From a virus, in the IMG/VR virus record IMGVR_UViG_3300042296_000092, positions 1 through 31,594 of that record: a stretch of DNA of 31,594 nt; one strand, 5' to 3'. A program made the translations under genes and the position numbers. The notes under the pieces were generated by a model. It ran no database searches, was not told where the DNA came from, and saw nothing but the letters and a program-made list of their open reading frames with translations. How positions within the stretch are numbered: position 1 is the stretch's first letter; every line of letters begins with the position of its first letter. Positions 13,661 to 29,875 of the stretch are shown here, one piece after another.

Positions 13661-13686
13661 ATAAAACGATTAGATGGTTATTTGTT
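13661..13686 (-). promoter_or_regulatory. Late promoter of the lysis cluster (ECF type)
   Basis: AACAAA (13681-13686), 12 nt, CGTTTTAT (13661-13668); the element ends 6 nt before the ATG at 13654. Same motif and identical spacing as the elements at 18646, 20964, 22285 and 29850. Transcription would start at or within a few bases of the ATG. Confidence 0.7.
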
Positions 13687-14014
13687 CCACATTCTCCGCG
13701 CCATAAATGGATACCAAGGCATCGTACACGGCATTCACCAACAATGATTCTGCGGGGATTGTTTCGTACGCTACCACTGATAATTCAAGGTTTGAAAAAG
13801 TGGTGTTAAAATCTTCAATGCCTTGGATGGGTGCTTTGCCTTCTGCCAATGCCCCAACACTTGCAAAAACAAAGGTTGCGATTTGGGCTGGGATGATTCC
13901 GTCTTTTTGACTTTTTACATCTGCGTAACCTTCTGCGATTACTACTACTGAACCCGATGGGATTGATAAACCGCTTGTAAGGTTTACGCTTGTATTGATT
14001 TGAATTGCTTTCAT
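13670..14014 (-). CDS. Probable virion-associated protein, 114 aa
   Basis: A beta-rich N-terminus (KAIQINTSVNLTSGLSIPSGSVVVIAEGYADVKS) is followed by an alternating strand/helix C-terminus. It lies between the tail fibre and lysis genes, and its style (small IPSGSVVxI-type beta domain) suggests a virion or fibre-accessory protein. No known family recognised. The late promoter for the next gene overlaps its stop codon. Confidence 0.6.
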   Translation of the reverse strand: MKAIQINTSVNLTSGLSIPSGSVVVIAEGYADVKSQKDGIIPAQIATFVFASVGALAEGKAPIQGIEDFNTTFSNLELSVVAYETIPAESLLVNAVYDALVSIYGAENVEQITI

Positions 14015-14026
14015 ATATTTACAAAA

Positions 14027-15238
14027 TTAGAATAAATCGTTCCAAGTGCTACCATTGTAGCAACATAGTTTGTTAGTTGTGGAATCATAAACAACCAATC
14101 CCGCGGCGGGTGATGCGATGGCGTTCTTTTGGGTTGTTGTCATTCGGGGAGGTAGGAAACCTTGCGTAGTGCTGTCGGCTCGTAAAATTGCACTATAAGA
14201 AGTTCCGTTTCCTGTAGTTATGTTGCCAATTAATACAGCACCAGATGATCCTAATCCTTTTAGTGCAATACTCCTGTTTCCGTTGTTTGCCGCATTTAAA
14301 GCCATATTGCCATTTGAATCATAAGCAGTAATAGATGAAGATCCTTCAGCGTTAAGAGCATTTGGTGTAACGAAAGTTGTACTTGAGGTTGAAGTTGTCA
14401 GTCTATTTCCAATAAAATAACCTTGTCCAACACCACCAGAATAAATACTTAAATTACCATTACTAACATCGTAAACCATTTGCCTTGTAGGCGAAACTGT
14501 ATTTGCAATAGTTAAATTTCCTCCAAGGGTAATTTTGGGTGCAGTAGACGGCAAAGACAATTCCCCTGCATCGTTAACAGAGAAAGTTGTAGTAGCCCCA
14601 CTATTCTGCACCAACAGCGATGTAGTGGCGGATGTTGAGCCACTGCCTTTTATGTGAACACGGGCGGATGGTGTAAAAGTTGTGAAACCTCCAATTCCAA
14701 CCGAACCATTTGAGAGATTAATTGCAACATCTTGCGCCGTACTACTTATTGCAGTAGGTGCGGCTTGACCAATAATGACTGAAAGAAACCTTGAAACTCC
14801 CGTGTTGTGTAACGAAGAAGTCGGCGCATTCGTACCAACACCCAACCTTTTATTGGTATCATCCCAAAAAAAGTTTGTGGCATCACTTGCAAAAGCACTT
14901 CCATTGCTAAACTGAATAGCACCCGCAACACCCGATACATTTGGGGTTGTAATGTTACCCGACCCCAAAACACTTGTTCCATTGATGGTCTTGATATTCG
15001 TTCCCGATACCAATGTATCTTGTTTTGCGGCTAATTGTGTTGTATTAGCAATCGCCACACCACCAACGGTTGCCGTGCCTGTTAAATTTATACTTGATGT
15101 TGATACTGAAATTGGAATATCATTTCCCAATCCATCAGATAATTGTTTTAATGTGCCATCTACTGGGCTATTATCGCCCACTTTAATTAAGGCATCATAA
15201 GTCGTTGCGGGTGTTAATCCCGTTAATGTATTTCCCAT
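14027..15238 (-). CDS. Tail fibre / receptor-binding protein
   Basis: A 403-aa Ser/Thr/Gly/Asn-rich protein. The N-terminus TYDALIKVGDNSPVDGTLKQLSDGLGND is a typical fibre attachment opening in Bacteroidota phages. Then come TINGTSVLGSGNITTP and GAIQFSNG and RLGVGTNAPTSSLHN repeats, typical of trimeric fibres. The C-terminus QGFLPPRMTTTQKNAIASPAAGLVVYDSTTNKLCCYNGSTW is a common fibre or adhesin end that would face the receptor. It probably determines host range. It lies downstream of the head genes rather than within the tail module. Confidence 0.8.
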   Translation of the reverse strand: MGNTLTGLTPATTYDALIKVGDNSPVDGTLKQLSDGLGNDIPISVSTSSINLTGTATVGGVAIANTTQLAAKQDTLVSGTNIKTINGTSVLGSGNITTPNVSGVAGAIQFSNGSAFASDATNFFWDDTNKRLGVGTNAPTSSLHNTGVSRFLSVIIGQAAPTAISSTAQDVAINLSNGSVGIGGFTTFTPSARVHIKGSGSTSATTSLLVQNSGATTTFSVNDAGELSLPSTAPKITLGGNLTIANTVSPTRQMVYDVSNGNLSIYSGGVGQGYFIGNRLTTSTSSTTFVTPNALNAEGSSSITAYDSNGNMALNAANNGNRSIALKGLGSSGAVLIGNITTGNGTSYSAILRADSTTQGFLPPRMTTTQKNAIASPAAGLVVYDSTTNKLCCYNGSTWNDLF

Positions 15239-15241
15239 GTT

Positions 15242-15499
15242 TTATAAATTATTCCAAGTTTCTTCTGTTAAATCAACCCATTGCATTTTTACATCTTCCC
15301 ATTTGACATTTGTAAATTGAGGGTTTCGTGTTATTTGCCCAATGCCTTGCGCCCACAAAGTGCCATCACAACACTTTTTGGAGTATGTGTTTTTGTCCTT
15401 GCACAAACACGCCCGTGTTCCACCACCTTGCGGGGATGACCTTGATGGGGTTTTCCACCCATTCTGTGTGTTGTTATTAGGGTTGTTCCAATTGCTCAT
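15242..15499 (-). CDS. Small Cys-rich protein beside the tail fibre gene
   Basis: An 85-aa protein: a Asn/Gly-rich N-terminus, then RACLCKDKNTYSKKCCDGTLWAQGIGQI, then a W-rich C-terminus. The ACLCxDxxTYSxKCCDGxLxAQGIG motif is one I recognise from Bacteroidota phages, with no known function. Its four cysteines could form disulphides in a virion protein. It sits directly before the fibre gene (3-nt gap) and forms ATGA with the spanin-like gene, suggesting a fibre-associated part. Confidence 0.65.
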   Translation of the reverse strand: MSNWNNPNNNTQNGWKTPSRSSPQGGGTRACLCKDKNTYSKKCCDGTLWAQGIGQITRNPQFTNVKWEDVKMQWVDLTEETWNNL

Positions 15500-16011
15500 T
15501 TTCTTATCAATGCAAAAAGTAAAAGTAAAAATAACACCGATCCAATCGCCACACCAATTTTTTGGGGTACACTGATTCTTTCTTTATACTGAATCTGTGG
15601 TGGTAACTGAATGGTCTTGGTGTAACGGATGGTGTCTGCCTTAACAATTGTCTTAACTCTTATCACATCGTGATTTCGATATACAATCGTTTTAACGCCA
15701 TCCTTTTCAATTGTGAGGGTATCAATCGTTTTTGTTGTAAAAGTGTCTGTAATGGTCACAGAATCACGCACAAACACGGTATCAATGCCATACACACTTA
15801 TTTGTGCCATGGCGGGGTTCTTTTTGATGGCTTTTTCTAAATGCCACTGCGCCGAACACCCCGTCAACAACATGATAAGTGTTAATAATTTACCACCTTT
15901 GACAAACAAATCGCACTTCACCTTATTGGTGGTTTTTAACTGCGTCATGTAGGTGGTCAATTTCTTGACCTTTTCATCCTTTGGTTTGTATGTTTTCTTT
16001 ACAGATTCCAT
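15496..16011 (-). CDS. Candidate unimolecular spanin (lipoprotein signal plus C-terminal membrane segment)
   Basis: A 171-aa protein with a lipobox-like LLTLIMLLTGCSAQ signal (Cys near residue 52 counted from the ATG at 16011; the true start may be an internal ATG at 15948). A roughly 95-residue beta-strand- and Thr/Val/Asp-rich ectodomain follows (VFVRDSVTITDTFTTKTIDTL...), then a C-terminal segment VGVAIGSVLFLLLLFALI-like before RK. A lipidated N-terminus in the outer membrane, a beta ectodomain and a C-terminal inner-membrane span is the layout of u-spanins such as phage T1 gp11, which fuse the membranes at lysis. It may instead be a structural protein, as it lies away from the holin. Confidence 0.5.
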   Translation of the reverse strand: MESVKKTYKPKDEKVKKLTTYMTQLKTTNKVKCDLFVKGGKLLTLIMLLTGCSAQWHLEKAIKKNPAMAQISVYGIDTVFVRDSVTITDTFTTKTIDTLTIEKDGVKTIVYRNHDVIRVKTIVKADTIRYTKTIQLPPQIQYKERISVPQKIGVAIGSVLFLLLLFALIRK

Positions 16012-16511
16012 GAAACATAGTTTGACGGATTTGTATTTGGGTATTCTCCCGCTTGTTGGTCCTCGGTGTACTGCGAAAATAATTGTGGGTAGTAACTCAA
16101 ATAATCAACAACCCGTCTACGATAAGTTTCCGCGATGTTTCTTTGGCGTTGAACCAATGTATCAATTTCACTTTTATCTGGCAAGGTTGTGTTTTCGGGT
16201 GAATTCCTCAAAATACCCGCATTGCTTACCTCATAGCCATGAAACAACAACAAATCAGCCATGGCGTAATGAATCAACATGGGTTGAACATAGTGCGAAA
16301 CCAAAGTTTGGTAGTTGCCCGTCAATGTCCCGTTTTCAACCTGGGTTAAAATGTACCGATACAACTTCGTTCCCAAAAGTTCTTGAACTTGTATGTCTTG
16401 ACTGATTTTAACAAAGGGATAAATTTTGTCCACATCCACATTACCACCCAATTGAGTGTATTTGAAGATTAGTTCTTTGTCAACCAGTAATATGTCATCG
16501 TTTGCGTACAT
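15999..16511 (-). CDS. Head-tail connector/adaptor-like protein (DUF6712-like)
   Basis: A 170-aa, largely helical protein: DVDKIYPFVKISQDIQVQELLGTKLYRYIL, then a helical middle (LVSHYVQPMLIHYAMADLLLFHGYEV), then RQRNIAETYRRRVVDYLSYYPQLF. The pattern resembles phage connector proteins found after the portal gene in Bacteroidota phages (DUF6712-like, from memory). It follows the portal gene by 1 nt, where head-completion proteins usually lie. Confidence 0.7.
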   Translation of the reverse strand: MYANDDILLVDKELIFKYTQLGGNVDVDKIYPFVKISQDIQVQELLGTKLYRYILTQVENGTLTGNYQTLVSHYVQPMLIHYAMADLLLFHGYEVSNAGILRNSPENTTLPDKSEIDTLVQRQRNIAETYRRRVVDYLSYYPQLFSQYTEDQQAGEYPNTNPSNYVSWNL

Positions 16512-16512
16512 C

Positions 16513-18297
16513 TTATTTATTCTTTAATGATCCTTTGTTTGGCATATCAATGGGGCGTGTCTTGGCGGTATTCCACCCACTTGGTGAGAATGGCACACCC
16601 GCATTGTCTGCGCTTTTGTTTGATACTTCGTTGTAATTATCTAAATCCCTACTTTCGCCAACCTCATTTGGTTGTTTTGGTAAAAACTTCCCTTTGACTT
16701 GTTTGCGTCTGAATGTCAATCGTTCCCATCTGTGGTGACAATTTACACCGCCTTTGTACTTCCAAATTGAATACGAACTTTGACCGCTTGGGGCGAATTG
16801 TCCGTTCACACCCGCATCACCCATTTGGATAATATCTTCCCTACGAAATATCACTCCGCTTTTGGCTTCTTGAACCATTGTAGAGCAAAACTCCCTTGAA
16901 TTGTTGGAAATGAAATCAGGACCGTAACGGTATCGGATTTTGTAAACCCCTTTATCGTCATCACTTTTTTTATTGGGGTTGTCATACGCCAAGTTAAATC
17001 TTAATTCTTCATCCGCGTCTGTAACTTCTTGAACATCAATAAGTTCCCATTCATCGGTGTTAATTATTTCCCCCTTGTCTTTCAAATGTTCTATCCAAGA
17101 TTTTTCGTCTTGGATGGTCATGTCCGCTAAATCAATCTTTTTTTTTTGACTTGCCAAGGATACGCCCGTTTCTTCTTCGCGCGTTTCATCATCAATGACA
17201 TTCCCACTCAAATCGGTGAATTCCAAAGGTTGTAAGGTCTTGAAATAAAGATTCAAATTGTAGCCGTTAAAGTTCAACACCTTGGTGACTGCATCAATAA
17301 TCAATCTTTGGAAAGGACGGATAACAACATTGTCAAACAAGATTGACGCTGATTTTAATTCGTCTGCGTTACTACCAAAACCCGTGTTGTCCTTAATACC
17401 CAAAAGTAATGGCGATACGATACGATGCGCCACCATGATTTTCTGCATGGATTCTTGGGAAAGGAATTGATATTGGTTGTGGGCATCACTCAATTGAACG
17501 GGGGTAATATCCGCAGCCGATTCCTTGCCATCATTCCACGAGATAATAAACCTTCCCGCGTTTGACGATCCGCCAAACTTTTGTTTGATTTGGGCTTCCA
17601 CAGTGTCCTTAACCTCGGCGGGTGGTTGCCCGTTATTGAAGTTTATCAACATACTTGGCGCAAGGCCATTCATGATGTTGTTAATATGGAAATTGGAAAT
17701 CTCCGCTTCCAAGTTGGCATATTGCGTACCGCCTTGGTAATCCACGGGTGCGAAGTAAAACGAACCCGTTGAATATGGTTTGATGGTTAAAATACATTCG
17801 TTTGCACTTTGGTCATAACCGAACGCCCTAAATTCAATTGGCGTGTGGTTACGCTTCATGTTAGCCCAATCAGGGCAATAGTAGTACTTTTCAATTTCAC
17901 CCTTTTCGTTGCATTTGGCGGGGCGAAGTGTTTGTTGTGGAAAGTGCTTTGCTTGGACATACTTTTTTCTGTCCTTTGACTTTACCAATTGGAACGATGC
18001 TTGCCCCAACATTTTCAAATCCATTGCAACGGCACGAAGGTCATCCGCACTGAACAACTTTTTGAATTCAATGTAACCTGGCAAATCCCTTGATGCCCTT
18101 GTAACCTCCAACCCTTTACCAAAGATTTGGTCAACTGTGCCTTTGATGCACGCATTGTTCGTGGGTGATGAATGGTATAGGTCAATCAAGTATTGGTAGT
18201 AATTATTATCATCACCATATTGCACCCAATCTTTGTTCTTTTGTTCAATGATGGATGGTGCGGTGTATGATTGTAATTGTATAAATTCTAAACTCAT
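16513..18297 (-). CDS. Portal protein with C-terminal extension
   Basis: A 594-aa portal: the DNA gate at the capsid vertex. N-terminal half: DWVQYGDDNNYYQYLIDLYHSSPTNNACIKG, the ~ LGQASFQLVKS strand region, HINNIMNGLAPSMLINFNNGQPP, then SQESMQKIMVAHRIVSPLLLGI and SNADELKSASILFDNVVIRPFQRLIIDAV, typical of HK97-type portals. From about residue 450, an extra domain carries VYKIRYRYGPD, NSREFCSTMV and HHRWERLTFRRK, which reads like the end of a head-morphogenesis (MuF-like) domain. It includes a run of ten A's on the mRNA (17138-17147 region) encoding QKKKI. The start at 18297 is set by an ATGA overlap. Confidence 0.85.
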   Translation of the reverse strand: MSLEFIQLQSYTAPSIIEQKNKDWVQYGDDNNYYQYLIDLYHSSPTNNACIKGTVDQIFGKGLEVTRASRDLPGYIEFKKLFSADDLRAVAMDLKMLGQASFQLVKSKDRKKYVQAKHFPQQTLRPAKCNEKGEIEKYYYCPDWANMKRNHTPIEFRAFGYDQSANECILTIKPYSTGSFYFAPVDYQGGTQYANLEAEISNFHINNIMNGLAPSMLINFNNGQPPAEVKDTVEAQIKQKFGGSSNAGRFIISWNDGKESAADITPVQLSDAHNQYQFLSQESMQKIMVAHRIVSPLLLGIKDNTGFGSNADELKSASILFDNVVIRPFQRLIIDAVTKVLNFNGYNLNLYFKTLQPLEFTDLSGNVIDDETREEETGVSLASQKKKIDLADMTIQDEKSWIEHLKDKGEIINTDEWELIDVQEVTDADEELRFNLAYDNPNKKSDDDKGVYKIRYRYGPDFISNNSREFCSTMVQEAKSGVIFRREDIIQMGDAGVNGQFAPSGQSSYSIWKYKGGVNCHHRWERLTFRRKQVKGKFLPKQPNEVGESRDLDNYNEVSNKSADNAGVPFSPSGWNTAKTRPIDMPNKGSLKNK

Positions 18298-18641
18298 AGT
18301 GTTTTCCAATTAGGTGTACCAGGCGCAGTCGTTGTGAACTGCTTCCAAGTGTTGTAAATGTTTGTTGTTCCCGTAATCCAATATCCCAAAACCTCCCAAA
18401 TCAACACATTCCCATTATACACACGAAACAATAATTCATCCGTGTTCTTTGCCACTGCGTTAATTGGCGTTAGGGCGGGTAAATTCATTGTGATGAAGGA
18501 ATATGACTTCACACACGCAGTCGTGGTGGAAACCATCGTTTTTGTGGGTTTATGCCATACCTCAATGGTTGCCGTTGACACACCTTCAAAATCCACGAAC
18601 GATGTGAATGTAACTGATGTGGATGTGTTATTGATGTGCAT
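18294..18641 (-). CDS. Virion protein upstream of portal, 115 aa
   Basis: A 115-aa beta-rich protein (STSVTFTSFVDFEGVSTATIEVWH, LLFRVYNGNVLIWEVLGYW). The start at 18641 (MHINNTSTS) follows 4 nt after a late promoter. An in-frame ATG at 18710 lies within the terminator and is not used. It lies between the tail tube and portal genes; probably a small structural or neck protein. No family recognised. Confidence 0.65.
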   Translation of the reverse strand: MHINNTSTSVTFTSFVDFEGVSTATIEVWHKPTKTMVSTTTACVKSYSFITMNLPALTPINAVAKNTDELLFRVYNGNVLIWEVLGYWITGTTNIYNTWKQFTTTAPGTPNWKTL

Positions 18642-18645
18642 ACCT

Positions 18646-18671
18646 ATAAAACGCAATTCTAACTTTTTGTT
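18646..18671 (-). promoter_or_regulatory. Late promoter of the portal operon (ECF type)
   Basis: AACAAA (18666-18671), 12 nt, CGTTTTAT (18646-18653), ending 4 nt before the ATG at 18641. The AACA element sits in the U-run of the preceding terminator, so termination and re-initiation are packed into about 60 nt. Confidence 0.7.
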
Positions 18672-18675
18672 ACAA

Positions 18676-18703
18676 AAGAAAACCCCCACCGATTTGGTGA
18701 GGG
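18676..18703 (-). terminator. Rho-independent terminator after the tail tube gene
   Basis: Transcript stem CCCTCACC/GGTGGGGG (8 bp, one G-U pair) with a 5-nt loop, followed by TTTTCTTTT. It lies about 28 nt after the tail tube stop codon and separates this unit from the portal promoter. Confidence 0.8.
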
Positions 18704-18730
18704 TCGTCAAACTATAAAACTGAAATCAAA

Positions 18731-19300
18731 TTAAGCCGCAGTGACAATCGTAATTACACTACCTAATTCAGCATAAGTGTCGGCATCTACTGCCATTGGA
18801 GGGTTTGGTTCGCTTGACATGAAAGTCAAAGTATTCAAACGAGCATCACCCATTTGCACACCCCATGAAGATGTTCCGCCATTGGCGTCACAACCCAAAG
18901 TTGCACCAATCAACCAAAATTGGTCGTTTCTATCCCACACGATGATTTGCCATCTACCTTGTGTCAAAACCTTCAATTGATCCATATCAGAATCGCCCGT
19001 TACGGGAGTTTTTCCGCTTGGTTTGAATGACAAAGTAAAGGTGGTTTCGTATGCAGATGTTCCGTTATCGCGTGATGCAATAACCGCAGTTTCAATGGTA
19101 GACAAACCTTTCAACTCCCAAAAGTAACCCGACAATTTTACGGGTGGAGTTGCACCATTATTCAATTGAGTTACTAAACCGCTTCCATCAGTTGTGATTG
19201 CGTTTGCAAATTCAAAGGGTACGAAGAACGCACCTTTGATACCGCCTACAAATTGCTTACATGGTTCGTATCTTCCTAATAAAGTTCCACAAGTTGGCAT
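18731..19300 (-). CDS. Major tail tube protein (probable)
   Basis: A 189-aa beta-rich protein starting MPTCGTLLGRYEPCKQFVGGIKGAFFVPFE. The C-x-x-L-G----C---VGGIK--(F/Y) opening is typical of tail tube proteins in Bacteroidota phages. The body (TFTLSFKPSGKTPVTGDSDMDQLKVLTQGRWQIIVWDRNDQFWLIG) fits the tube-forming beta barrel. It lies directly after the major capsid gene and before a terminator, as expected for an abundant structural protein. A head-decoration role is less likely. Confidence 0.7.
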   Translation of the reverse strand: MPTCGTLLGRYEPCKQFVGGIKGAFFVPFEFANAITTDGSGLVTQLNNGATPPVKLSGYFWELKGLSTIETAVIASRDNGTSAYETTFTLSFKPSGKTPVTGDSDMDQLKVLTQGRWQIIVWDRNDQFWLIGATLGCDANGGTSSWGVQMGDARLNTLTFMSSEPNPPMAVDADTYAELGSVITIVTAA

Positions 19301-19320
19301 ATTTTTTCTATTTTGTTGTT

Positions 19321-19352
19321 AAAAAAAAGGGGCGGGTGTTTACGCCCACCCC
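19321..19352 (-). terminator. Strong hairpin and U-run between capsid and tail tube genes
   Basis: Transcript stem GGGGTGGGCG/CACCCGCCCC (one G-U pair, one mismatch) with a 4-nt loop, then eight T's. It begins 23 nt after the capsid stop. No late promoter is visible before the tail tube gene, so some transcription must read through; it may set the capsid-to-tube ratio. Confidence 0.85.
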
Positions 19353-19375
19353 GTGTTTATATTGTTCCTATAAAA

Positions 19376-20317
19376 TTAGGTTACATTGATTACAACTTGT
19401 TGAGTTGGGTTGGTAGCGATGATACCACCAGTGAAACGCATGATTACACGCACATTCTGTGAACCATCAATGTCACTCATGTCAATCACCTTCACTTCAT
19501 TGTAGTCGCTCAACAAACCAGTACCGAAGTGCAAATCTGACTTCATACCCAATACACAGTCGTAATCGTTAAGACCAGGACACATGGTTACGGGGATACC
19601 TTGGAAGTTCATTGGCTTTTCACCAACATAGAATTGGAAGTTGTAATTACCAGCAGACAAAGCGGCTTGGTATGCTTTCATGGTAGATGGACCAACATAG
19701 TATTGGTATCCTTCTTTGCCATACAATGCAGCGGGTGAGTAATCCAATGCTTCTTGCAAACGAGCAACAACATTTGATCCAGTTGTAGCACCACTGAACG
19801 CACGAACGATTGCAGAATTGTCAATCAAATAACCAACCATACCATCTTGACCAGGAACCAATGCGGAATCATACCACAAATTTGATTTCCAGATACCCAA
19901 TTCGTTTGCTTGTGCTACTTCGGCAGCGGTTTGTGCCAACATGAATTCTTCAAAAGTTGCAGGCAATTTTTCAAATGCACTGAAACCTGCTTGTGCTGCT
20001 TCCCATGTAGTACGCAATTGGTTCTTACAAAGTTGTAAGTTTACTTGCTTCTCGATGGTAGTCAACACATATTCACCCAAAGTTACTGATGAAGAATCAG
20101 TGAAATCACAAGTTGCATCGGCAATGGTGATTGAATCTTGGTAGTTACGGATAACTTCTTTAAAAGCCACATTGGGGTGCAATGTGATAAGTTCTTTTGC
20201 CAAGGTCTCGCCTGACAACAACGCAGCCGCAATGTATTTGTTACCAAATAAACCCGCGTAGGTATTTGGAGATACTGTTGGGCCACTCAAATTGATTTTG
20301 TTTAATTTATTGTTCAT
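19376..20317 (-). CDS. Major capsid protein
   Basis: A 313-aa protein: the shell subunit. It lies between a scaffold-like gene and a strong terminator. The sequence shows an N-terminal arm, then LITLHPNVAFKEVIRNYQDSITI, VTLGEYVLTTIEKQVNLQLCKNQLRTTWEA, a long middle with ELGIWKSNLWYDSALVPGQDGMVGYL, and a C-terminal DYDCVLGMKSDLHFGTGLLSDYNEVKVIDMSDIDGSQNVRVIMRFTGGI. This is the order of HK97-type capsid domains (E-loop, P domain, A domain). Regular codon choice and terminator placement fit high expression. Confidence 0.85.
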   Translation of the reverse strand: MNNKLNKINLSGPTVSPNTYAGLFGNKYIAAALLSGETLAKELITLHPNVAFKEVIRNYQDSITIADATCDFTDSSSVTLGEYVLTTIEKQVNLQLCKNQLRTTWEAAQAGFSAFEKLPATFEEFMLAQTAAEVAQANELGIWKSNLWYDSALVPGQDGMVGYLIDNSAIVRAFSGATTGSNVVARLQEALDYSPAALYGKEGYQYYVGPSTMKAYQAALSAGNYNFQFYVGEKPMNFQGIPVTMCPGLNDYDCVLGMKSDLHFGTGLLSDYNEVKVIDMSDIDGSQNVRVIMRFTGGIIATNPTQQVVINVT

Positions 20318-20326: not shown

Positions 20327-20959
20327 TTAGTTAAAAAGTTGGTCAAATACTCTGTCTTTAATTGTCTTTTCACGCTTACTTGAAATGTGAAAATTCATTT
20401 TGCTTGTGGTTGTTGCTTCGGGGTTGAATGGAGTGTGTGGGGCGGGTTCAGTTGCCAATCTTTCTTCCAATTCAGCGTTAACGGCACTCAAAGCAGTTTT
20501 TTCCATTTCCAATGCTGACAAACGGGCTTCAAACTTGGCTTCAAGTTCTTTGATTTGTGCGCTGAAATAAGATTCTTCCATTTCGGTTTTAGATTTCACG
20601 GTTTTCTTTGGTTTCATTCCCATTTCTTCCTTGATTTCGTCTTTCATGATATCGTTTTGGGCTTCAACTTCCTCAACGATTTCTTCTTCCTCAACTTCGG
20701 CTTCTTTCTTTGCGATTTCAACGATTACACCGTTTTCATCAACCTCAACGATGTTACCATCTTCCATGGCGAATTCACCAGCGGGTGCGGGAATCTTTCC
20801 ATCTTCGGTTACGATAAAAATTGCTTGACCTACTTCAAAGGCATCCGCTTCAAAAATGGCTTGGCCATCTTCGGTTTTTACTTGTTCCAACGCAACGGAA
20901 ACGGGTTCATTGATACCCAATTTTACCATGATGCGGTCCAAGATTGTTTCTGCGTTCAT
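20327..20959 (-). CDS. Scaffold-like / capsid assembly protein
   Basis: A 210-aa, strongly acidic protein just before the capsid gene. It has an N-terminal beta part rich in ED (VKTEDGQAIFEADAFEVGQAIF, FAMEDGNIVEVDENGVIVEI), an E/V repeat region (KKEAEVEEEEIVEEVEAQND), and a coiled coil (SAQIKELEAKFEARLSALEMEKTAL) with a basic end that could bind the capsid. The likely start is the ATG at 20959: the promoter's -10-like box overlaps the ATG at 20965, and 20959 then has the same 4-nt spacing seen at the other late promoters. Confidence 0.7.
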   Translation of the reverse strand: MNAETILDRIMVKLGINEPVSVALEQVKTEDGQAIFEADAFEVGQAIFIVTEDGKIPAPAGEFAMEDGNIVEVDENGVIVEIAKKEAEVEEEEIVEEVEAQNDIMKDEIKEEMGMKPKKTVKSKTEMEESYFSAQIKELEAKFEARLSALEMEKTALSAVNAELEERLATEPAPHTPFNPEATTTSKMNFHISSKREKTIKDRVFDQLFN

Positions 20960-20963
20960 ACTC

Positions 20964-20989
20964 ATAAAACTTTATTTTTTTAGATTGTT
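20964..20989 (-). promoter_or_regulatory. Late promoter of scaffold and capsid genes (ECF type, AGT variant)
   Basis: AACAAT (20984-20989), 12 nt, AGTTTTAT (20964-20971), ending 4 nt before the ATG at 20959. It differs from the other late elements only in C to A at the first -10 position. It would feed the scaffold and capsid genes separately from the upstream head operon. Confidence 0.6.
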
Positions 20990-20995
20990 AGATTT

Positions 20996-21325
20996 TTACA
21001 GTATTTTACTAAAACTGTTCAACGATTTTGCCAACTTGCTATATTGAGCAATCCCATTGGTTGCCTTATCGTAAATTTTACGCATTAAATCGGCTTGACC
21101 TTTTTGCTTGGCTCTTTCTGCCTGAACCATGGCGGTTCTTGATTGGCTTTGTATCTTTTCCAAATCTTTAACCGCGGTTTTGATTTGGCTTGCCATTGGC
21201 TGAATATCACTAGCGATTCGCTGAACGCCTTTACTCACTGAATCACCCATTGCAAGTGATTGTTTAAGTAATTTTTCAATTGCCTTAACATCAATTAATT
21301 CAATTCTGTACCCTTTAAGTTGCAT
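20996..21325 (-). CDS. Small helical protein of the head module, 109 aa
   Basis: A wholly helical-looking, Lys/Gln/Ala-rich protein (VSKGVQRIASDIQPMASQIKTAVKDLEKIQSQSRTAMVQAERAKQKG). It lies between the XkdF-type protease and scaffold genes, where scaffold helpers occur. Function unknown. Confidence 0.65.
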   Translation of the reverse strand: MQLKGYRIELIDVKAIEKLLKQSLAMGDSVSKGVQRIASDIQPMASQIKTAVKDLEKIQSQSRTAMVQAERAKQKGQADLMRKIYDKATNGIAQYSKLAKSLNSFSKIL

Positions 21326-22284: not shown

Positions 22285-22310
22285 ATATAACGATTTATCC
22301 TGGGAATGTT
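22285..22310 (-). promoter_or_regulatory. Late promoter of the head operon (ECF type)
   Basis: AACATT (22305-22310), 12 nt, CGTTATAT (22285-22292), ending 5 nt before the ATG at 22279. The AACATT lies in the last codons of the tape measure gene, so tail and head operons meet here without a terminator. Confidence 0.7.
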
Positions 22311-24187
22311 GCGTTTTGTTGGATTCTGCGGTCAAGGGCTTGTTGTGTACTCATGTCCGTTGCAACTGCATACGCCTTGATTGGCTTTTGGTTTTGTTGT
22401 GCCAATGACCTTGCAATCTGTGCCGATGGGTCGGCTGAACCACCCACGATTGAAACACTTGGTCCGCTTGGTGCGGATGATGATGTGTCCGTTGCACCTG
22501 GAACGGGAGTGGCTACCATTCTGCGCACATTCGCAAATCCCGTTGCCAATATCGCTGCCATGTTGATGTATCCAATTGGTGTTCCCGCACCCGCTGCCAA
22601 TGCTTTGTTTGCACCCATGTAGGTATCAATGATGGCACTTGCAATTGCCAAGGTTTTACCCGCTGCGGTTTCTTCACCAACTGCACTTGCAATGGATTGT
22701 AATGCACCCGTCACGGCACTTGCCAATGCTTCTTGTTGACTGATTTTGAATTCGGTCAATGCCTTTTCATTTTGTGCAGACCATGTGGCAAATTCAACTT
22801 CTTTGGTTTTTCTGTCCGCATCGTATTGGGTTTGTGCTTCCGCCTTTTGGTTCAACACATCTTGATACGCTGCCGTTCCCTTTGTGAGTTGTGATAATTG
22901 TGCGTCAAAGTCCGCTTGTCGTCTTGCGTTCAATTCATCCAATTGACGCATTTCTTCTTCACGCAATGCCTTTTCCGCATCCTTAACCGCTTTGAATTTT
23001 TCAAACTCATTCTTGATTAAATCGGCACGATCCACCGCCGCTTGTTTTTCGGCCAACAACGCTTCGTTGGTGATTTCTGTTTGTGATAACTTGGATTCGT
23101 TGATTGACTTTTGAATGTCCAATGCTTCTTTACCCAATGATACTTCGTTGGTCAAGGTTTCCGACATCAACCCCGCATACTTGGCAGTAACACCCGTTAA
23201 TTCTTGTTGCAATGCCAATACTTCATTTGCTCGGTCTTTGTTGTAACCCAACAAATTTTGTTGCATTTGAAGAATGCCCATTCGGGCTTGGATGTTTTCT
23301 TTTTCCTTTTGCTCACCCTCGGCCAATACCCTTTGCAATTCCTTGTTGGCAATCAATCTATCTGCGATGGTTTTGTTTTCATCATCACGAATTTGGCGTT
23401 GCTTTTCAGCCATCAAATCGTACTTTTCAACAATACCTTGATAAAGGGTTTGCAATCTCTGAATGTTGGCTTCCGCCGCTGCCAATATGTCTTTGTTATC
23501 AAATGCCTTTTTGGTTGCTTTCCTAATTGTAGTAACCGCATTGGTAACCCCTTGAACAACATCATTCACAACACCCTTGATGTTTTCCATCTTCTTGGCA
23601 TTTTCTTGTGCCAACTTGATGTTCTGTTTTTGGAGTGCGTCTATTTCATCGCTTATCTTTTTGGCTTCTTCGGTGTCGCCCGTGAATTCGTTCCAGTTCT
23701 TTCGGAGTTCCAATATGGCAATCTTTGCCGTGTTTGCCCATTGAACAAACTTATTGAACACCCCATCAATCATGTTTTCTTTAATCCACTTTGCACCATT
23801 TTGGAATGATGTCACCAAATCACCCCACCATTTCTGCGGATCTTTGAACGCTTTGCCCATCCAAACAAACAATGGTTTCAATACCTCAATTACCCCATTC
23901 ACCACGCCTTGCATAACAACCATGGCTTGGTTCATCAAGTCAACCACTTGTTGGTTTTCACTCAATACACTTTTGAAGGTATCCAACACCCCCAATAGAA
24001 TACCAAAACCCAATCCCGTTTTGACTGCGTTTCCTATGGATGCCAAGGTTTTACCAAACCCTTTCAGCCCGTTCGCTGCCTTGCCGAATATACCAGGTAG
24101 CCCCTTGACACTTTTGGATAAGTTATCAATGTTCTTTTCCGCTTTATCGGTATCGGCATTTACCTTAAAATTTATTTCTTCCGCCAT
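22295..24187 (-). CDS. Tail tape measure protein
   Basis: A 630-aa protein that sets tail length and is ejected ahead of DNA. The N-terminus FKVNADTDKAEKNIDNLSKSVKGLPGIFGKAANGLKGFGKTLASIG is typical. Hydrophobic segments follow (GLGFGILLGVLDTF; AMVVMQGVVNGVIEVLKPLFVWMG), then a very long coiled coil (EANIQRLQTLYQGIVEKYDLMAEKQRQIRDDENKTIADRL...). A C-terminal Ala/Gly-rich helix closes the protein (ALASAVTGALQSIASAVGEETAAGKTLAIASAIIDTYMGANKAL). At about 1.5 angstroms per residue this length predicts a tail near 95 nm (rule-of-thumb inference). Confidence 0.93.
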   Translation of the reverse strand: MAEEINFKVNADTDKAEKNIDNLSKSVKGLPGIFGKAANGLKGFGKTLASIGNAVKTGLGFGILLGVLDTFKSVLSENQQVVDLMNQAMVVMQGVVNGVIEVLKPLFVWMGKAFKDPQKWWGDLVTSFQNGAKWIKENMIDGVFNKFVQWANTAKIAILELRKNWNEFTGDTEEAKKISDEIDALQKQNIKLAQENAKKMENIKGVVNDVVQGVTNAVTTIRKATKKAFDNKDILAAAEANIQRLQTLYQGIVEKYDLMAEKQRQIRDDENKTIADRLIANKELQRVLAEGEQKEKENIQARMGILQMQQNLLGYNKDRANEVLALQQELTGVTAKYAGLMSETLTNEVSLGKEALDIQKSINESKLSQTEITNEALLAEKQAAVDRADLIKNEFEKFKAVKDAEKALREEEMRQLDELNARRQADFDAQLSQLTKGTAAYQDVLNQKAEAQTQYDADRKTKEVEFATWSAQNEKALTEFKISQQEALASAVTGALQSIASAVGEETAAGKTLAIASAIIDTYMGANKALAAGAGTPIGYINMAAILATGFANVRRMVATPVPGATDTSSSAPSGPSVSIVGGSADPSAQIARSLAQQNQKPIKAYAVATDMSTQQALDRRIQQNATFPG

Positions 24188-24327
24188 GACTTGTATGCTC
24201 TTTTATATTGTTTTGCAACTTGCTTTAATGTTTGGTTGTATTGGTATTTCCCTTTGGCGATTTCCACCGTGTCGGATACCCCATACCATTCTTGTGATTG
24301 TAAAAGTTGAATTATCTGTGTTATCAT
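24172..24327 (-). CDS. Small protein before the tape measure, 51 aa
   Basis: Fifty-one residues starting MITQIIQLLQSQEWYGVSDT, with a basic end (KQYKRAYKSWRKK). Its ATG forms ATGA with the stop of the large tail protein and it overlaps the tape measure start by 16 nt, so it fills the only gap in the tail operon. Unknown function; its position suits a small tail-assembly factor. Confidence 0.75.
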   Translation of the reverse strand: MITQIIQLLQSQEWYGVSDTVEIAKGKYQYNQTLKQVAKQYKRAYKSWRKK

Positions 24328-26975
24328 TTTTTAAGTACTAAAAAGTTTGCTTTTTGAATTACGATTGTATGGCTTCCACCCGTTACATTTTTCCAAACAA
24401 ATGTCACTTCATCCGTAGGGGCTAAATCCAAAATGGTTTCTAAGTTCACGCTATGGTGGTTAGAATCGGTCAACCCATAAGCGGTGGTTGCAACACCATT
24501 GATTTGTATTTCAAACTCAATTTGTTTATTCCCACTTTGCCCAAATGCGCACATGGCCGTAAACTTGTATTGCCCTCCATCGGTACACACATACTTTGAA
24601 AGTGGCATATCTGATGTGATGTTATCCACATACCCAATTGTTTGTGTCGTTTCCATTGGAATCGGGTCCCAAATCGTTGAATCCGTGGTTCTTGATGTGG
24701 GGGTGTTTCTGTACATCGTGATTTGGTTGAACTGCAAAATGGATTGTACATTGTTCACTTGCTGAACCAAACTGAATACATTGTTTTGGTTGTAGTCAAT
24801 GTCTTGGTTGGTGTCCAAATAATCTTGGTTGTTGAACTTGTATGAATTCATGATGCCCTTGGCAACCGAATAATCCTTCAAATAAGTCAAACCAAATGGC
24901 GTTTCTGTTGGGTTGGTGAAATCGGGCTTTTGACCAGTGGTTGTGAACCTCATGATTTCAACATCGGGATAAGTCACCAATTCTAAATTGGCAACCTCCG
25001 TTAACATATCGTATTGGATTGATTGCACTTTGTAGTAATTTGACGAAATGGCGATGGTGTCGTTTAATTTAAGATTCAACCATTCACCCACGGGTAGTAT
25101 TGCAGTCATTTTAACCACCCTTGATTGCGTTGAATACATTCGGGTGAGGTATTCTGTCCAATACATATCGTACATTGTCTGTGTGGGCGCATCTCCACGC
25201 AATGACAATTCCAATCCAAAGGCGTTTGAATAACTTGTGGATAAAGTTGGATACTCCGAATATGGTGTCATCAATGGCATCACATATTGAGTTATCCCGT
25301 TGAAAAACCATGTATCCGAAACCGATTGTTTGCCTCCGTAGTAAAACAATGTGTAATCTTGTTGCACGGGCTTGGAATCTTGATCCATAAACACGGGAAG
25401 ATTCAATTCACTTTTGCGTACAATCTGCCCGTTGGCGTTCACTTGGTTCATTGCTTGTGGGGCGATAATATGAAACGGGGTTTCAACGCTGAATTCATCC
25501 GTTGGGTAATCAATTTCGGGTTCAACTTTGACGCTTCCATATTCCCTTTTGTTGATTTGCTTGTAATAAGCATTGGCCAAACAAGATGATTCCTGATGCG
25601 TGAATGAAATAGTCCGTGGGATTGGGATTTTATCGTGTTGAATATCCTTCACATCCACATACTTTGTCCAATTTCGCGTTGTTCCAAGCGCTAACCAATC
25701 TTGCAAATTGTGAATTTCAATTTCGGTTTCACTCACGGGTACCAATATGCAGTTAAAACCTTGCAAAATACCATTCACAAAGTCCTTGATGGGCTTTTGT
25801 GGCATTGCATCATCCATGTGTATCGTGTTTCCGTTAATGCCTTGTGGGGCTTTGAAACACTTGAATGTGATTGAGATGGTTGACCAGTTACCCGTGGCAC
25901 GATAACGCACAGAAACAACATCCCCACCATTCAATTGTTGGTTGAAACTGAATCCACGCGGACCACTTGTGGCCGTAAATGTACCCGCTGCGGGTGCAAA
26001 TAACTTCCGACCATTCACAAAAAAGGCAATTTCTAAACTTTGCAACGGCACACCTGGGGCGGTTACGCTTAATGTGTCAATTGAGAATTGGTAAAACCCA
26101 CCACGATTCACTGTGTAATCTCCCGTTGCGGGGTTGTAGTTGCCCGATGGGTTTGAAACAATGGATGGGAATATCAATTGGGTGTATGTCAATACTCCCG
26201 ATGTTGCAGTAAATGATTGTGGTGAATTAAAGGCGTGTGATGTTCCTGGCAATGTATATTCGGGGTCGTATAAAGGACCCGCAGTTTGCATCGGCAACAC
26301 ATACAAATCATCCATCTCGGGGCGTGTCAAAAACGAACCACTTAATGTCAAATCAATTTCAGCAAATGCAGTTACAAGCATTGAACGCAATCGAATCGCG
26401 GGGCGTAAATCATCCACTTCAACACCACGGCTTTGGTAGATGTTACCATTCACCCCAGTGAGTTTAGAATATCTCCAACCTTGGTTGTAATCTGCAATCG
26501 GCCACAATATGTTACCACTGACCAATGCTTGATCCCATGAAGAAAGGATGTTGGCATAATTGGCCGTGTGGTCATATGCACTCCAATCCACTTCATTCAT
26601 CAAGGTTTCACCCCATTTGTCCAAAATCTTTTTGGTAGTACCATAAAAAATGATGTTATAAAGTTGTGGCAATCCGTCTTTGAACTTGCACCCAATCAAC
26701 TCAACCCTACCTTCAAACACGGGCAAACCATGGATGAAGATTGTGCCATCCTTTCCCAAATTAGGATTCCATGCACCCATCACCATGTTTTCATCAAACC
26801 AGTTTTCAAATATGGCGTTGTTTGTTTCTGATGCGGGGATTTGAAAATCCTTGGTGTAATCCGTCCACACTGTGGAAAGGTTCATCAAGTCCTTCAACTG
26901 CCTTGTAAGCGGAATGGATTCATCGTTGAATAGGTCAACGGGTGTGCCGTCAATTTGTAAACTGAACCTTATCAT
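24324..26975 (-). CDS. Large tail-tip protein, 883 aa
   Basis: Encoded just upstream of the tape measure. The N-terminus (RFSLQIDGTPVDLFNDESIPLTRQLKDL) and DFQIPASETNNAIF, then a long beta-rich body with many Thr/Gly/Asn runs (TFTATSGPRGFSFNQQLNGGD), suggest a distal tail/tip protein that docks fibres or forms the tail end. A motif GEWLNLKLNDTIAISSNYYKVQSIQYDMLTEVANLELV suggests a tube-like domain. I recognise this as a large tail protein of Bacteroidota phages but cannot name a characterised family. Confidence 0.75.
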   Translation of the reverse strand: MIRFSLQIDGTPVDLFNDESIPLTRQLKDLMNLSTVWTDYTKDFQIPASETNNAIFENWFDENMVMGAWNPNLGKDGTIFIHGLPVFEGRVELIGCKFKDGLPQLYNIIFYGTTKKILDKWGETLMNEVDWSAYDHTANYANILSSWDQALVSGNILWPIADYNQGWRYSKLTGVNGNIYQSRGVEVDDLRPAIRLRSMLVTAFAEIDLTLSGSFLTRPEMDDLYVLPMQTAGPLYDPEYTLPGTSHAFNSPQSFTATSGVLTYTQLIFPSIVSNPSGNYNPATGDYTVNRGGFYQFSIDTLSVTAPGVPLQSLEIAFFVNGRKLFAPAAGTFTATSGPRGFSFNQQLNGGDVVSVRYRATGNWSTISITFKCFKAPQGINGNTIHMDDAMPQKPIKDFVNGILQGFNCILVPVSETEIEIHNLQDWLALGTTRNWTKYVDVKDIQHDKIPIPRTISFTHQESSCLANAYYKQINKREYGSVKVEPEIDYPTDEFSVETPFHIIAPQAMNQVNANGQIVRKSELNLPVFMDQDSKPVQQDYTLFYYGGKQSVSDTWFFNGITQYVMPLMTPYSEYPTLSTSYSNAFGLELSLRGDAPTQTMYDMYWTEYLTRMYSTQSRVVKMTAILPVGEWLNLKLNDTIAISSNYYKVQSIQYDMLTEVANLELVTYPDVEIMRFTTTGQKPDFTNPTETPFGLTYLKDYSVAKGIMNSYKFNNQDYLDTNQDIDYNQNNVFSLVQQVNNVQSILQFNQITMYRNTPTSRTTDSTIWDPIPMETTQTIGYVDNITSDMPLSKYVCTDGGQYKFTAMCAFGQSGNKQIEFEIQINGVATTAYGLTDSNHHSVNLETILDLAPTDEVTFVWKNVTGGSHTIVIQKANFLVLKK

Positions 26976-28090
26976 CGTACCATTTTATTAATCTTCGGTT
27001 GGTTGTACTCCAATTGGATCGTGTACAAAATCAACTTTTCGTTCACCCTTGTTTTGCGTTCAAACGCGGTGTCCATCACCCGTGCGGATAATACTTCGCT
27101 ACCATCCAACATAAGAATGTTTGTGGAATAAAACATTTGTTCAACCACCTCAACATCGTTTTCACTTATCCAATCCGTGTTCACTGTCATGGTTTCAACT
27201 GAATTGGTCAAATAGGGCGTTGTAATTCCCACTCCGTATGTCCATGCTTCGGCCATGTCCGTCTGTTTGAATATGGGTTGTTCGTATTTTTCTTTGGTTA
27301 CTGCAAAAGTCGATTTGTAAACACCATTGAAAAGGAACGAATCATAAACCCCGTATTTGTTCAGGAACAAAACATCTTGTTGTCCGTACTTATTCTCGCA
27401 CACAAAATCCACGGGAATGACAATGTCATCACCCGCCTTTACAAAAGTGATGTTGATGTCTGCACCCCATGTTCCACCCGCAGTGATTAGTTGCTTTAAT
27501 TCAATGCCTTGGATGAGTTGGTCCGAACCAGTCACAGTGTTTGGGGTAATGGTTGCGCTTCCACACACGATTGATGTAATGACACTTGCATCATACCACA
27601 GATACGCACTTGGTGTTGCCGTGGTCAATGTAACCTTTGATTTGTCCGTGAATACATATTTGGTTGGATAACCTTGGTTGAATCCTTCCGCAGTATAAGC
27701 ATACCCCGCAGATGCCAAACCGACATTGCTTGTTACATAACTTGTGAATGTTAGTGTCGTCCCAACATAGTATGCACCCCGTACCTTTATGGCAAATCGC
27801 TTTGCACCGCTTCCGATGTTTGGTTTGTAAGTCCCATTGATTAAAAAATCACGGGTCACTTCTTGTTGAACCAATTTGTGAATGTCAATCCATCCACGCC
27901 CACTGCCGTATTGGTCGGGTTTTCTGTTGATGGTCCAATTAGGCGATGCGGGAATTGTTGCCGTGCCACTCCACACATACACATCACATTGATAATAAAA
28001 TTTGTCTGATGTATAAAGTGCATCGTAAAATTGATACATGATTGGGGAATTACATCCCACTATTGATTCGGGTTGTTGGTTAAAAATCAT
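26972..28090 (-). CDS. Tail protein, 372 aa
   Basis: A Tyr/Thr-rich, beta-rich protein (PIMYQFYDALYTSDKFYYQCDVYVWSG..., YGQQDVLFLNKYGVYDSFLF, VNEKLILYTIQLEYN). It sits between a tail-completion protein and the large tail-tip protein and overlaps the latter as ATGA. It is probably a distal tail or baseplate hub component; no characterised family recognised. Confidence 0.7.
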   Translation of the reverse strand: MIFNQQPESIVGCNSPIMYQFYDALYTSDKFYYQCDVYVWSGTATIPASPNWTINRKPDQYGSGRGWIDIHKLVQQEVTRDFLINGTYKPNIGSGAKRFAIKVRGAYYVGTTLTFTSYVTSNVGLASAGYAYTAEGFNQGYPTKYVFTDKSKVTLTTATPSAYLWYDASVITSIVCGSATITPNTVTGSDQLIQGIELKQLITAGGTWGADINITFVKAGDDIVIPVDFVCENKYGQQDVLFLNKYGVYDSFLFNGVYKSTFAVTKEKYEQPIFKQTDMAEAWTYGVGITTPYLTNSVETMTVNTDWISENDVEVVEQMFYSTNILMLDGSEVLSARVMDTAFERKTRVNEKLILYTIQLEYNQPKINKMVR

Positions 28091-28635
28091 CGCTTAAATC
28101 TGTTTTTAATATCTTGTGCCATTGCTTTTGTCAACGCCTTGTTGAATGATGGTAGTATCTCGGTTCGTGCCATTGTAACAAACGGGAACGGCTCAATACC
28201 AAAGTGTTTTATCTTTCTATTCATTGCAAACCGCATACCCTCCGCAGTTGCCTTGGATTTAAATTTACCAGTTGACAAATCACGGGGTTGGATGCGTTTC
28301 ATCTTTGTCCAATTACGCATTGATTCAAGTGGTATGCCTTTACCTGGCTTTCTACCATTTTGCACATAATCACCCGTTTTGTTCATGGTGATGCCCAATG
28401 TCATTCCGTTTGGATTGGGTTGAATAGAGTTCACCAATTGCCCACTTGCCACATAGTTTCCACGGAATGTCTTTTTGGTAACGGAAATGGGCGTCCAACC
28501 TTCACCAACCTTTTTCCATTTGGCACGGATGGATGTGCGTGGTCTTTTTACCTCCAACATCATACGGGCGGAAACTGCCCATTTATTGGAATACTCCGCA
28601 ACAACGGCTTCGCTATTCTTAAACGCAATCGCCAT
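28087..28635 (-). CDS. Tail completion / neck protein, HK97 gp10-like (tentative)
   Basis: A 182-aa, strongly basic protein: VVAEYSNKWAVSARMMLEVKRPRTSIRAKWKKVG, QLVNSIQPNPNGMTLGI, then a C-terminal helix (MARTEILPSFNKALTKAMAQDIKNRFKR). The length, basic charge and C-terminal helix, plus its place after a tail-terminator-like protein, fit gp10-type neck proteins. Tentative. Confidence 0.6.
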   Translation of the reverse strand: MAIAFKNSEAVVAEYSNKWAVSARMMLEVKRPRTSIRAKWKKVGEGWTPISVTKKTFRGNYVASGQLVNSIQPNPNGMTLGITMNKTGDYVQNGRKPGKGIPLESMRNWTKMKRIQPRDLSTGKFKSKATAEGMRFAMNRKIKHFGIEPFPFVTMARTEILPSFNKALTKAMAQDIKNRFKR

Positions 28636-29110
28636 CAGTCACCCATGGGTTAATCAGTTCAATGCCAACTGTGATTTGATAACCACCCAATACCGTGTCC
28701 ATTGTTTCCACAAATGGTTGAAAAGTAATTGGGCGAATGTATTGCACTTGGTTGTAGTAATTCTGTTCCGTACGCCACAAACCCTTTGAAAATCTCACAT
28801 ACAAATCTTGAAGGATGTGTCCGTAGTTTTGATTCTCGGTGTATCCGTACTCCGAATACTCGGTTATCAAGTTTTCTTGTTCGTTTTCCGTTTTCAAGAA
28901 GTTCACACGATCCGCCACCATTACATTCATTTGTATGGTTGCCACTTGGTCTGTCAATGCCACGGATTGAATCGAACAATGCATCAATGGGAATACCAAA
29001 AACGCCTTGAAATCAAGTTCGGTCAATGTACCATGTGAATAATTCCAACCTTCTTCGGTTGCAATATCCTTCATCAACTCAAATGCCGTGCCTATGTGAT
29101 TATTGTTCAT
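28619..29110 (-). CDS. Tail terminator-like protein, 163 aa
   Basis: A mixed alpha/beta protein (TAFELMKDIATEEGWNYSHGTLTELDFKAFLVFPLMH; LGGYQITVGIELINPWV) with the general size and pattern of tail terminator proteins. It overlaps the preceding chaperone gene by 11 nt in frame 0. The -1 frame extension of that gene ends exactly with an ATGA overlap here, which is the usual junction type in this genome. Confidence 0.6.
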   Translation of the reverse strand: MNNNHIGTAFELMKDIATEEGWNYSHGTLTELDFKAFLVFPLMHCSIQSVALTDQVATIQMNVMVADRVNFLKTENEQENLITEYSEYGYTENQNYGHILQDLYVRFSKGLWRTEQNYYNQVQYIRPITFQPFVETMDTVLGGYQITVGIELINPWVTDGDCV

Positions 29111-29843
29111 TTTTTTCTAATTGCTTTTTGTTCCATCTTCGCAATGTCACTTTCGTAAGCCGTCCACATGAGAGCGGTTTGAATGGGCTTTGTATACACA
29201 TTGTCAAGGTTGAGGAAATTTCGGTTAGCAAGTCGGTAGACCATTCCAAACCATCCCCATTTTTTGGTAAGGCGTATTTCATCGCCACTTCCCCCTTCCT
29301 CACCATCCGCAAATACTTCTGGAAAGAATTCAATAAGTCGATTCCTAAACTCCAAAAAAAAAGCATCGCACCAAATGCAGTGTTTGCGTCTATCTCCTTA
29401 AATGCCGTGTTTAGGTCGGCATTGTAGGCCATGATTTCATACCTTCCATTCTGTCCTTTTTTGGTAATGGGGCGATACAAAACCGACAACACTTTCCAAA
29501 GGTCGTTTGGTTCTTTGCAGTAATTTTCGATGTCAATGAATTCACCCGTTGTGAGTTCGTCAAAGTTTGGGATGAATCCGTATTCAATGCCTTTGTACTC
29601 GAACCTGGGGGTGAATGTTGGTTTAGATTCCAACATGGTTGTGATTTTTTCCACACAGTATTTCAGTGTGTCAAATGGCATATTCTTAACCTCCGACATG
29701 GTCAAGTCACAAAAGATTGCCACCGCTTCCAACTGCCTTGATACATCATCCATTTCGGGTTTTAACCCGTTGTATGTTATCATTTGATGCAACTTTACAT
29801 CACGCAGTTCGGTAGGTACAATTATCTTTTTGTTTTCAATCAT
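29100..29843 (-). CDS. Tail assembly chaperone (gpG-like), frame-0 product
   Basis: A 247-aa protein with a helical N-terminal half (VSRQLEAVAIFCDLTMSEVKNM, MLESKPTFTPRFEYKGIEYGFIPNFDEL), then AFGAMLFFWSLGIDLLNSFQKYLRMV. It opens the tail operon, where phages place chaperones that hold the tape measure. At residues 194-195 the codons AAA AAT form the slippery heptamer A AAA AAT (29259-29265). Past this point the frame-0 sequence looks unlike a domain, whereas the -1 frame encodes WGWFGMVYRLANRN, as expected for the T-extension. The gene follows a late promoter by 6 nt. Confidence 0.75.
   Translation of the reverse strand: MIENKKIIVPTELRDVKLHQMITYNGLKPEMDDVSRQLEAVAIFCDLTMSEVKNMPFDTLKYCVEKITTMLESKPTFTPRFEYKGIEYGFIPNFDELTTGEFIDIENYCKEPNDLWKVLSVLYRPITKKGQNGRYEIMAYNADLNTAFKEIDANTAFGAMLFFWSLGIDLLNSFQKYLRMVRKGEVAMKYALPKNGDGLEWSTDLLTEISSTLTMCIQSPFKPLSCGRLTKVTLRRWNKKQLEKNEQ
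29107..29265 (-). other. Putative -1 frameshift: slippery A AAA AAT and chaperone extension
   Basis: The heptamer A AAA AAT (29259-29265) lies in frame. A -1 slip continues as WGWFGMVYRLANRNFL...MWTAYESDIAKMEQKAIRKK, 50 codons, and stops at 29107 with ATGA on the next gene's start. The resulting 245-aa protein looks more native than the frame-0 end. Either it is a programmed frameshift, as in the lambda G/GT pair, or one A has been lost from a run of seven in the true gene. Confidence 0.6.
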
Positions 29844-29849
29844 ATATCA

Positions 29850-29875
29850 ATAAAACGAAGAAATTCCCGAATGTT
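29850..29875 (-). promoter_or_regulatory. Late promoter of the tail operon (ECF type)
   Basis: AACATT (29870-29875), 12 nt, CGTTTTAT (29850-29857), ending 6 nt before the ATG at 29843. The upstream half overlaps the terminator-like hairpin behind the DnaA-like gene. It is one of five elements with identical spacing. Confidence 0.7.

Follow-up and report, generated by a model that had tools for sequence, protein, structure and literature searches.

Two phage-encoded sigma factors that direct transcription from private late promoters have been studied experimentally and serve as precedents, SaPh711_gp47 of Salmonella phage 7-11 and gp36 of phage phiEco32 (PMC8948821). We analysed a viral DNA of 31,594 nucleotides (nt), positions 1 to 31,594 of IMG/VR record IMGVR_UViG_3300042296_000092, hereafter called the window, which carries five copies of a bipartite element, AACAWW-N12-NGTTWTAT, and encodes a small sigma-like protein. 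Promoters of extracytoplasmic function (ECF) sigma factors carry an AAC in the -35 element and a CGT in the -10 element, with a distance of about 16 nt between them. The element fits this form, being AAC-N15-C/AGTT in the window and having N15, N16 or N17 in relatives. Very probably, the five elements are late promoters of the phage-encoded, ECF-like two-domain sigma factor, from which transcription would start so close to the start codon that the messengers are leaderless or nearly so.

An earlier reading of the window (the sequence-only reading) had listed five elements with identical 12-nt spacing, four ending in CGTTWTAT and one in AGTTTTAT. An exact pattern scan returned precisely these five (Table 1), with the composition claimed. 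All are located on the minus strand, which is the coding strand, compared with 0.06 matches expected and a maximum of 1 in 100 dinucleotide shuffles; the consensus was fitted to the same five sites, and this figure alone is no fair test. We also scored the window with a matrix based on sites of relatives that were picked by a regular expression, so that its invariant columns are partly present by construction. Scores of the five sites were 21.6-26.2; no other position on either strand exceeded 6.4, and 20 shuffles reached 14.1 at most. Neither scan detected the motif elsewhere in coding regions or on the plus strand. As proposed earlier, the matches are found only at five late gene starts, preceding the tail, head, capsid, portal and lysis units and not early genes, and comparison of upstream regions revealed no element before other genes of this phage. 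The sites are not all intergenic, because the AAC halves of promoters 2 and 5 overlap the 3′ ends of the upstream open reading frames (ORFs) 22295-24187 and 13670-14014, respectively. A terminator-like hairpin at 29861-29886 overlaps the -35 half and the spacer of promoter 1.

The element is conserved in close relatives. We collected 80 IMG/VR loci from each of two protein searches, one with the portal and one with the sigma protein (1.57 Mb). In this set we counted 206 coding-strand copies of AACA-N15-GTTWTAT (its final N being the C or A that precedes GTT) and none on the opposite strand; matches with different spacings were few. Many of these loci are near-identical, and the matches correspond to 87 distinct sites ahead of about six gene families. 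The exact motif precedes orthologs of the genes behind promoters 1 to 5 in 41/41, 8/9, 25/35, 44/63 and 15/27 cases, respectively; many of the orthologs lacking it carry a variant differing by one base or lie in another gene context. In upstream regions that were anchored solely by requiring GTT at a distance of 11-16 nt from the ATG, AACA and CGTTTTAT are invariant in all 25 distinct regions of the tail-gene orthologs while most spacer positions vary, and AAC-N15-CGTT is retained in 25 out of 25 distinct regions of the gene starting at 18641. Thus, the motif that the sequence-only reading expected before orthologous late genes of sigma-encoding relatives is present there, and all nine clade A and B contigs longer than 25 kb that were checked contain both the sigma gene and promoter sites.

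Specificity for spacing was also evident when we scanned the whole collection of viral contigs with the correct spacing and, as a spacing control, with one base more (AAC-N16-CGTT); the counts are samples. With the correct spacing, 38 of the 111 matches listed precede known late families, and several more precede a sixth family (MQLQGYKIEL). With the longer spacing, only 4 of the 126 matches listed precede related families, and those four belong to clades D and E. Two contigs from the latter scan, L268 (G014) and L258 (G016), each encode a remote homolog of the sigma factor (E 3e-17 and 3e-18), and the 75 others gave a single weak sigma match.

Two side observations concern these families. In the sub-group formed by L043, L060, L063 and L064 the scaffold promoter reads AAC-N15-AGTATTTTAGAT-ATG in place of AGTTTTAT, a change that may have weakened or altered the site. 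The sixth motif-led family (MQLQGYKIELGA, about 95 amino acids) is located upstream of the tail gene (L084 at 6151, L344, L346 and L384); a small protein of the window, MQLKGYRIEL (20996-21325), resembles it and has no promoter.

The promoter class and its placement before late genes were described correctly in the sequence-only reading, which missed that the element is locked to the start codon. Every element in the window ends 4-6 nt before an ATG. At all 121 non-redundant sites (87/87 in clade A, 15/15 in clade B and 19/19 in clade C, which has N17) the C of CGTT is followed after 11-16 nt, most commonly 12 nt, by an ATG opening an ORF of at least 60 amino acids, and this ATG is never replaced by GTG or TTG. 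ECF sigma factors start transcription at a distance from their element similar to that of the phage 7-11 sigma factor. For the latter, the distance between element and transcription start is 6-9 bp (PMC8948821). With 4-7 nt separating the end of the -10 element from the start codon, the predicted late start coincides with the AUG or precedes it by about 4 nt at most, and by analogy with these factors the late messengers should be leaderless or nearly so. Bacteroidota, the probable hosts (see below), naturally lack Shine-Dalgarno sequences (PMC6847099), and 5.5% of the mRNAs of Flavobacterium psychrophilum are leaderless (PMC9723704). Phage transcripts are stated to be often leaderless (PMC5312081), and leaderless phage mRNA is not new as such; what appears unusual is an entire late regulon that is built this way.

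Promoters of the same build were found in more distant clades. Clade B phages, with portals about 66-68% and sigma factors 48% identical to those of the window, have AAC-N15-CGTT followed by ATTT, AATT or ATAT in place of TTAT. In P12024L (clade C, L162), a cultured phage of Nonlabens (Persicivirga) sp. IMCC12024, AAC-N17-CGTTAATATA-N2-ATG precedes seven genes (ATGs at 179, 3031, 5412, 22090, 24771, 26011 and 27612), one of them with N16, compared with 0.04 expected; these promoters are absent from the annotation in its record, and N17 sites of this type recur in six related contigs. Clade D has N16 at three sites. The sigma factors are 21-48% identical between clades, that of P12024L (gp35) 21-26%. 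The motif stands before homologous genes in different clades. In clades A, B and D it precedes the first gene of the tail unit; in these three and in clade C it precedes the protease/scaffold genes, the scaffold homolog being fused to a protease in C and D. The clade B ortholog of the promoter 4 gene is motif-led as well. Thus, promoter architecture is conserved while sequence, spacing and sigma factor have diverged. In P12024L, the annotated minus-strand genes gp04 and gp07 are each preceded by a TATATTTG box on the reverse strand (near 2980 and 5365) that overlaps or adjoins a late promoter (2999 and 5380); these pairs might be divergent, mutually exclusive host and phage promoters.

The protein encoded at 4853-5461, which had been called a small two-domain sigma-like protein, is indeed of this kind. 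Residues 108-158 match PF08281 (Sigma70_r4_2; 27.2 bits, cut-off 25.7), and the PHROG match is RNA polymerase sigma factor. A DDMVQSMYLK-type block is conserved in the sigma alignment across clades, and the region 2 Pfam model (cut-off 24) is passed by homologs L162 (25.2) and L177 (34.8), clade B staying below it at 21.3. Pfam matches to region 4 were likewise obtained for orthologs. Since a sequence search against PDB chains returned no match, a fold comparison was needed. The structural model has two helical domains joined by a low-confidence linker and lacks domains 1.1 and 3. Its best solved matches in Foldseek are SigL, AlgU, CnrH, SigW and E. coli sigma-E, aligned over both domains.

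Promoters of host type appear to serve the early genes. The Bacteroidota sigma-A form TTG-N18-21-TATWTTTG occurs four times on the coding strand and not on the other (0.29 expected), always below 12.1 kb, and no sigma-A boxes (TAnnTTTG at -7, TTG at -33) were found before the five late starts. The host is probably a member of the Bacteroidota, judging from the nearest cultured relative and from this early-promoter form. A portal alignment against bacterial genomes gave no relative and hence no prophage-based host assignment. The site at 984-1014 bears on a gene start: methyltransferase ORF 108-1001 probably begins behind it, at an internal ATG near 971, and not at GTG 1001.

Together these results suggest the following programme. 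Host sigma-A holoenzyme would first transcribe the early half, including the sigma gene. The phage sigma factor would then join host core RNA polymerase, with domain 4 reading AACA at -35 and domain 2 reading C/AGTTWTAT at -10, leaving 15 bases between AAC and C/AGTT. This polymerase would begin transcription of the tail, head, portal and lysis units either at the AUG itself or no more than about 4 nt ahead of it, giving (nearly) leaderless late mRNAs in hosts whose translation does not depend on Shine-Dalgarno sequences. The circuit put forward in the sequence-only reading, in which early host-type promoters yield the sigma factor that activates the late regulon, is well supported by the four sigma-A-type sites in the early half and by the clade-wise pairing of sigma factors and promoters. 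Timing, start sites, host group and recognition of the elements by the sigma factor are what we infer, the step from co-occurrence to recognition being a strong one. A broader proposal is that, in this whole lineage, late promoter and start codon have become a single unit; all sigma-driven late operons would then be leaderless, and the late switch would change both sigma factor and mode of translation initiation. We give it even chances.

Alternatively, the phage might exploit an ECF sigma factor of its host to read the elements, the phage sigma factor having another role. Flavobacteria possess several ECF sigma factors, and one mapped promoter class of F. psychrophilum is of ECF type, with CGT in its -10 box (PMC9723704). 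We nevertheless consider this unlikely, given that an ECF-like sigma factor is encoded by every long relative tested and that the motif occurs before virion and lysis genes only. Moreover, promoter variants differ between sigma clades, and a host factor would have to change its spacing in step with the phage clades, an argument that is softened if the clades infect different hosts. A different possibility is that the phage sigma factor does read these promoters but that the real starts lie several nt away from the prediction, leaving the late mRNAs not truly leaderless. The start position relative to CGTT was borrowed from other ECF and phage sigma factors, including the starts mapped for 7-11. 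A start farther downstream would however destroy the conserved AUG and one farther upstream would fall in the -10 element, and leaders of 0-4 nt alone fit this geometry comfortably; such a displacement seems rather unlikely to us.

Very improbable, and rejected here, is that the elements are translation or mRNA-processing signals of an AT-rich initiation region. Their fixed, short distance from the ATG would suit such a role, and Bacteroidota tune initiation through adenines before the start codon (PMC6847099). The AAC half, however, is located about 30 nt upstream, and the spacing, fixed within a clade and 15, 16 or 17 between clades, fits two polymerase contacts. Besides, the conserved letters C/AGTTWTAT are not A-rich, other phage genes do without the element, and a terminator-like hairpin precedes one site. 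That chance or base composition produced the pattern is scarcely credible. The consensus was indeed fitted by eye to five AT-rich sites, but strand and spacing specificity in the relatives rules this explanation out, and the exact and matrix scans, the scan of the whole collection, the P12024L sites, the lock to the ATG and the conservation before orthologs speak against it as well.

Several results weigh against late promoters read by the phage sigma factor. Region 2 of the window's sigma factor gave no Pfam match. The two AlphaFold models are of moderate confidence (mean predicted local distance difference test scores of 59 and 64), and global template modelling (TM) scores of about 0.3 leave the domain orientation uncertain; such scores are expected, because a poorly predicted linker joins the two domains. 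The terminase gene (1020-2177) is without an AAC-CGTT-type element, and 10 of the 35 scaffold-gene sites are inexact, for instance AGTATTTTA in L043-type phages. Membership of clades D and E is based on E-values of about 1e-17 and few sites. Finally, the sigma tree has long branches and left the clades poorly resolved, and co-evolution is for that reason argued from the clade-wise spacing and not from the tree.

Promoter position also bears on the genes of the window. The scaffold-like ORF called at 20327-20965 must start at ATG 20959, because ATG 20965 falls within the -10 element, and for ORF 18294-18710 the promoter geometry sets the start at ATG 18641. The first gene of the lysis region (13376-13654 in the window) varies behind its conserved promoter, its product beginning with MAAIKKP, MSISASSF or MTAVKKT (L003, L015, L058, L021 and L073), a pattern that points to gene exchange just downstream of promoter 5. 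An 883-amino-acid protein (24324-26975), probably of the virion, contains a C1q-like segment (Pfam C1q, 31 bits).

Table 1. Predicted promoters and other features of the window (aa, amino acids).
Feature	Coordinates	Strand	Sequence or evidence	Context
Predicted late promoter 1	29850..29875	-	AACATT-N12-CGTTTTAT, then TGATAT-ATG (29843)	Heads tail operon
Predicted late promoter 2	22285..22310	-	AACATT-N12-CGTTATAT, then AGAAT-ATG (22279)	Heads small gene and head maturation protease
Predicted late promoter 3	20964..20989	-	AACAAT-N12-AGTTTTAT, then GAGT-ATG (20959)	Heads scaffold-like and probable major capsid genes
Predicted late promoter 4	18646..18671	-	AACAAA-N12-CGTTTTAT, then AGGT-ATG (18641)	Heads 115-aa gene and portal gene
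Predicted late promoter 5	13661..13686	-	AACAAA-N12-CGTTTTAT, then TAAGAC-ATG (13654)	Heads lysis region
Terminator-like hairpin	18681..18705	-		Immediately 5′ of promoter 4
ECF-like phage sigma factor, 202 aa, TTG start	4853..5461	-	Pfam, PHROG, Foldseek	
VRR-NUC gene	5448..5801	-		Immediately upstream of sigma gene; same order in P12024L
Host sigma-A-type promoter-like site	12008..12037	-	TTG-N19-TATATTTG	Early half
Host sigma-A-type promoter-like site	11801..11831	-	TTG-N20-TATTTTTG	
Host sigma-A-type promoter-like site	8934..8963	-	TTG-N19-TATATTTG	Upstream of replication genes
Host sigma-A-type promoter-like site	984..1014	-	TTG-N20-TATATTTG	Before methyltransferase gene
First gene of late unit 1, 247 aa	29100..29843	-	Orthologs in clades B (48%) and D (29%)	Orthologs also motif-led
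Scaffold-like head gene, start corrected	20327..20959	-		ORF as called 20327-20965
Probable major capsid protein	19376-20317			Next after scaffold-like gene
Portal protein	16513..18309	-	PHROG portal, 6.9e-104	Downstream of promoter 4
N-acetylmuramoyl-L-alanine amidase (lysis)	12088..12747	-	Pfam Amidase_2	Downstream of promoter 5

These results provide a transcription programme at the sequence level for phages of probable Bacteroidota hosts, which have many relatives in viromes and few in culture. The sigma-promoter pairs with spacers of 15, 16 and 17 constitute a natural experiment on sigma/promoter co-evolution. A leaderless late regulon follows as a prediction from the start-codon lock and is testable in the cultured phages P12024L or P12024S, and promoter position corrects gene starts miscalled by ORF callers. 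If the prediction is true, leaderless late operons exist in hosts that have few leaderless mRNAs among those mapped. In the literature searched, whose coverage left out most subscription journals, we found neither a description of this lineage with its start-codon-locked layout nor a paper on leaderless late phage promoters served by phage-encoded factors.

Among cultured phages, P12024L and P12024S (Inhavirus) share homologous portal, protease/scaffold, VRR-NUC and sigma genes with the window; P12024L differs in its spacer (17 versus 15), in the tail of its -10 element and in its divergent sigma factor. With bacterial ECF sigma factors such as SigW, sigma-E and AlgU the system has in common the two-domain sigma factor, the AAC/CGT promoters (the SM6 promoters of F. 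psychrophilum also have the CGT box; PMC9723704) and the structural matches over both domains; here, however, the factor is phage-encoded and its promoters lie ahead of virion genes, and no anti-sigma factor or membrane signal was identified. Like gp36 of phiEco32, the sigma factor of the window would redirect host polymerase to late genes, whereas gp36, as described in PMC8948821, acts at single-element middle/late promoters (tAATGTAtA) and has no region 4 homology. The system also resembles that of SaPh711_gp47, a phage sigma factor with region 4 and bipartite late promoters in a phage that uses the host primary sigma factor for its early genes (PMC8948821). Its consensus is GTAAtg-(16)-aCTA, its host belongs to another phylum, and the main text of PMC8948821 does not mention a leaderless layout. 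By this analogy, the system of the window appears to work like that of phage 7-11 with an unrelated consensus.

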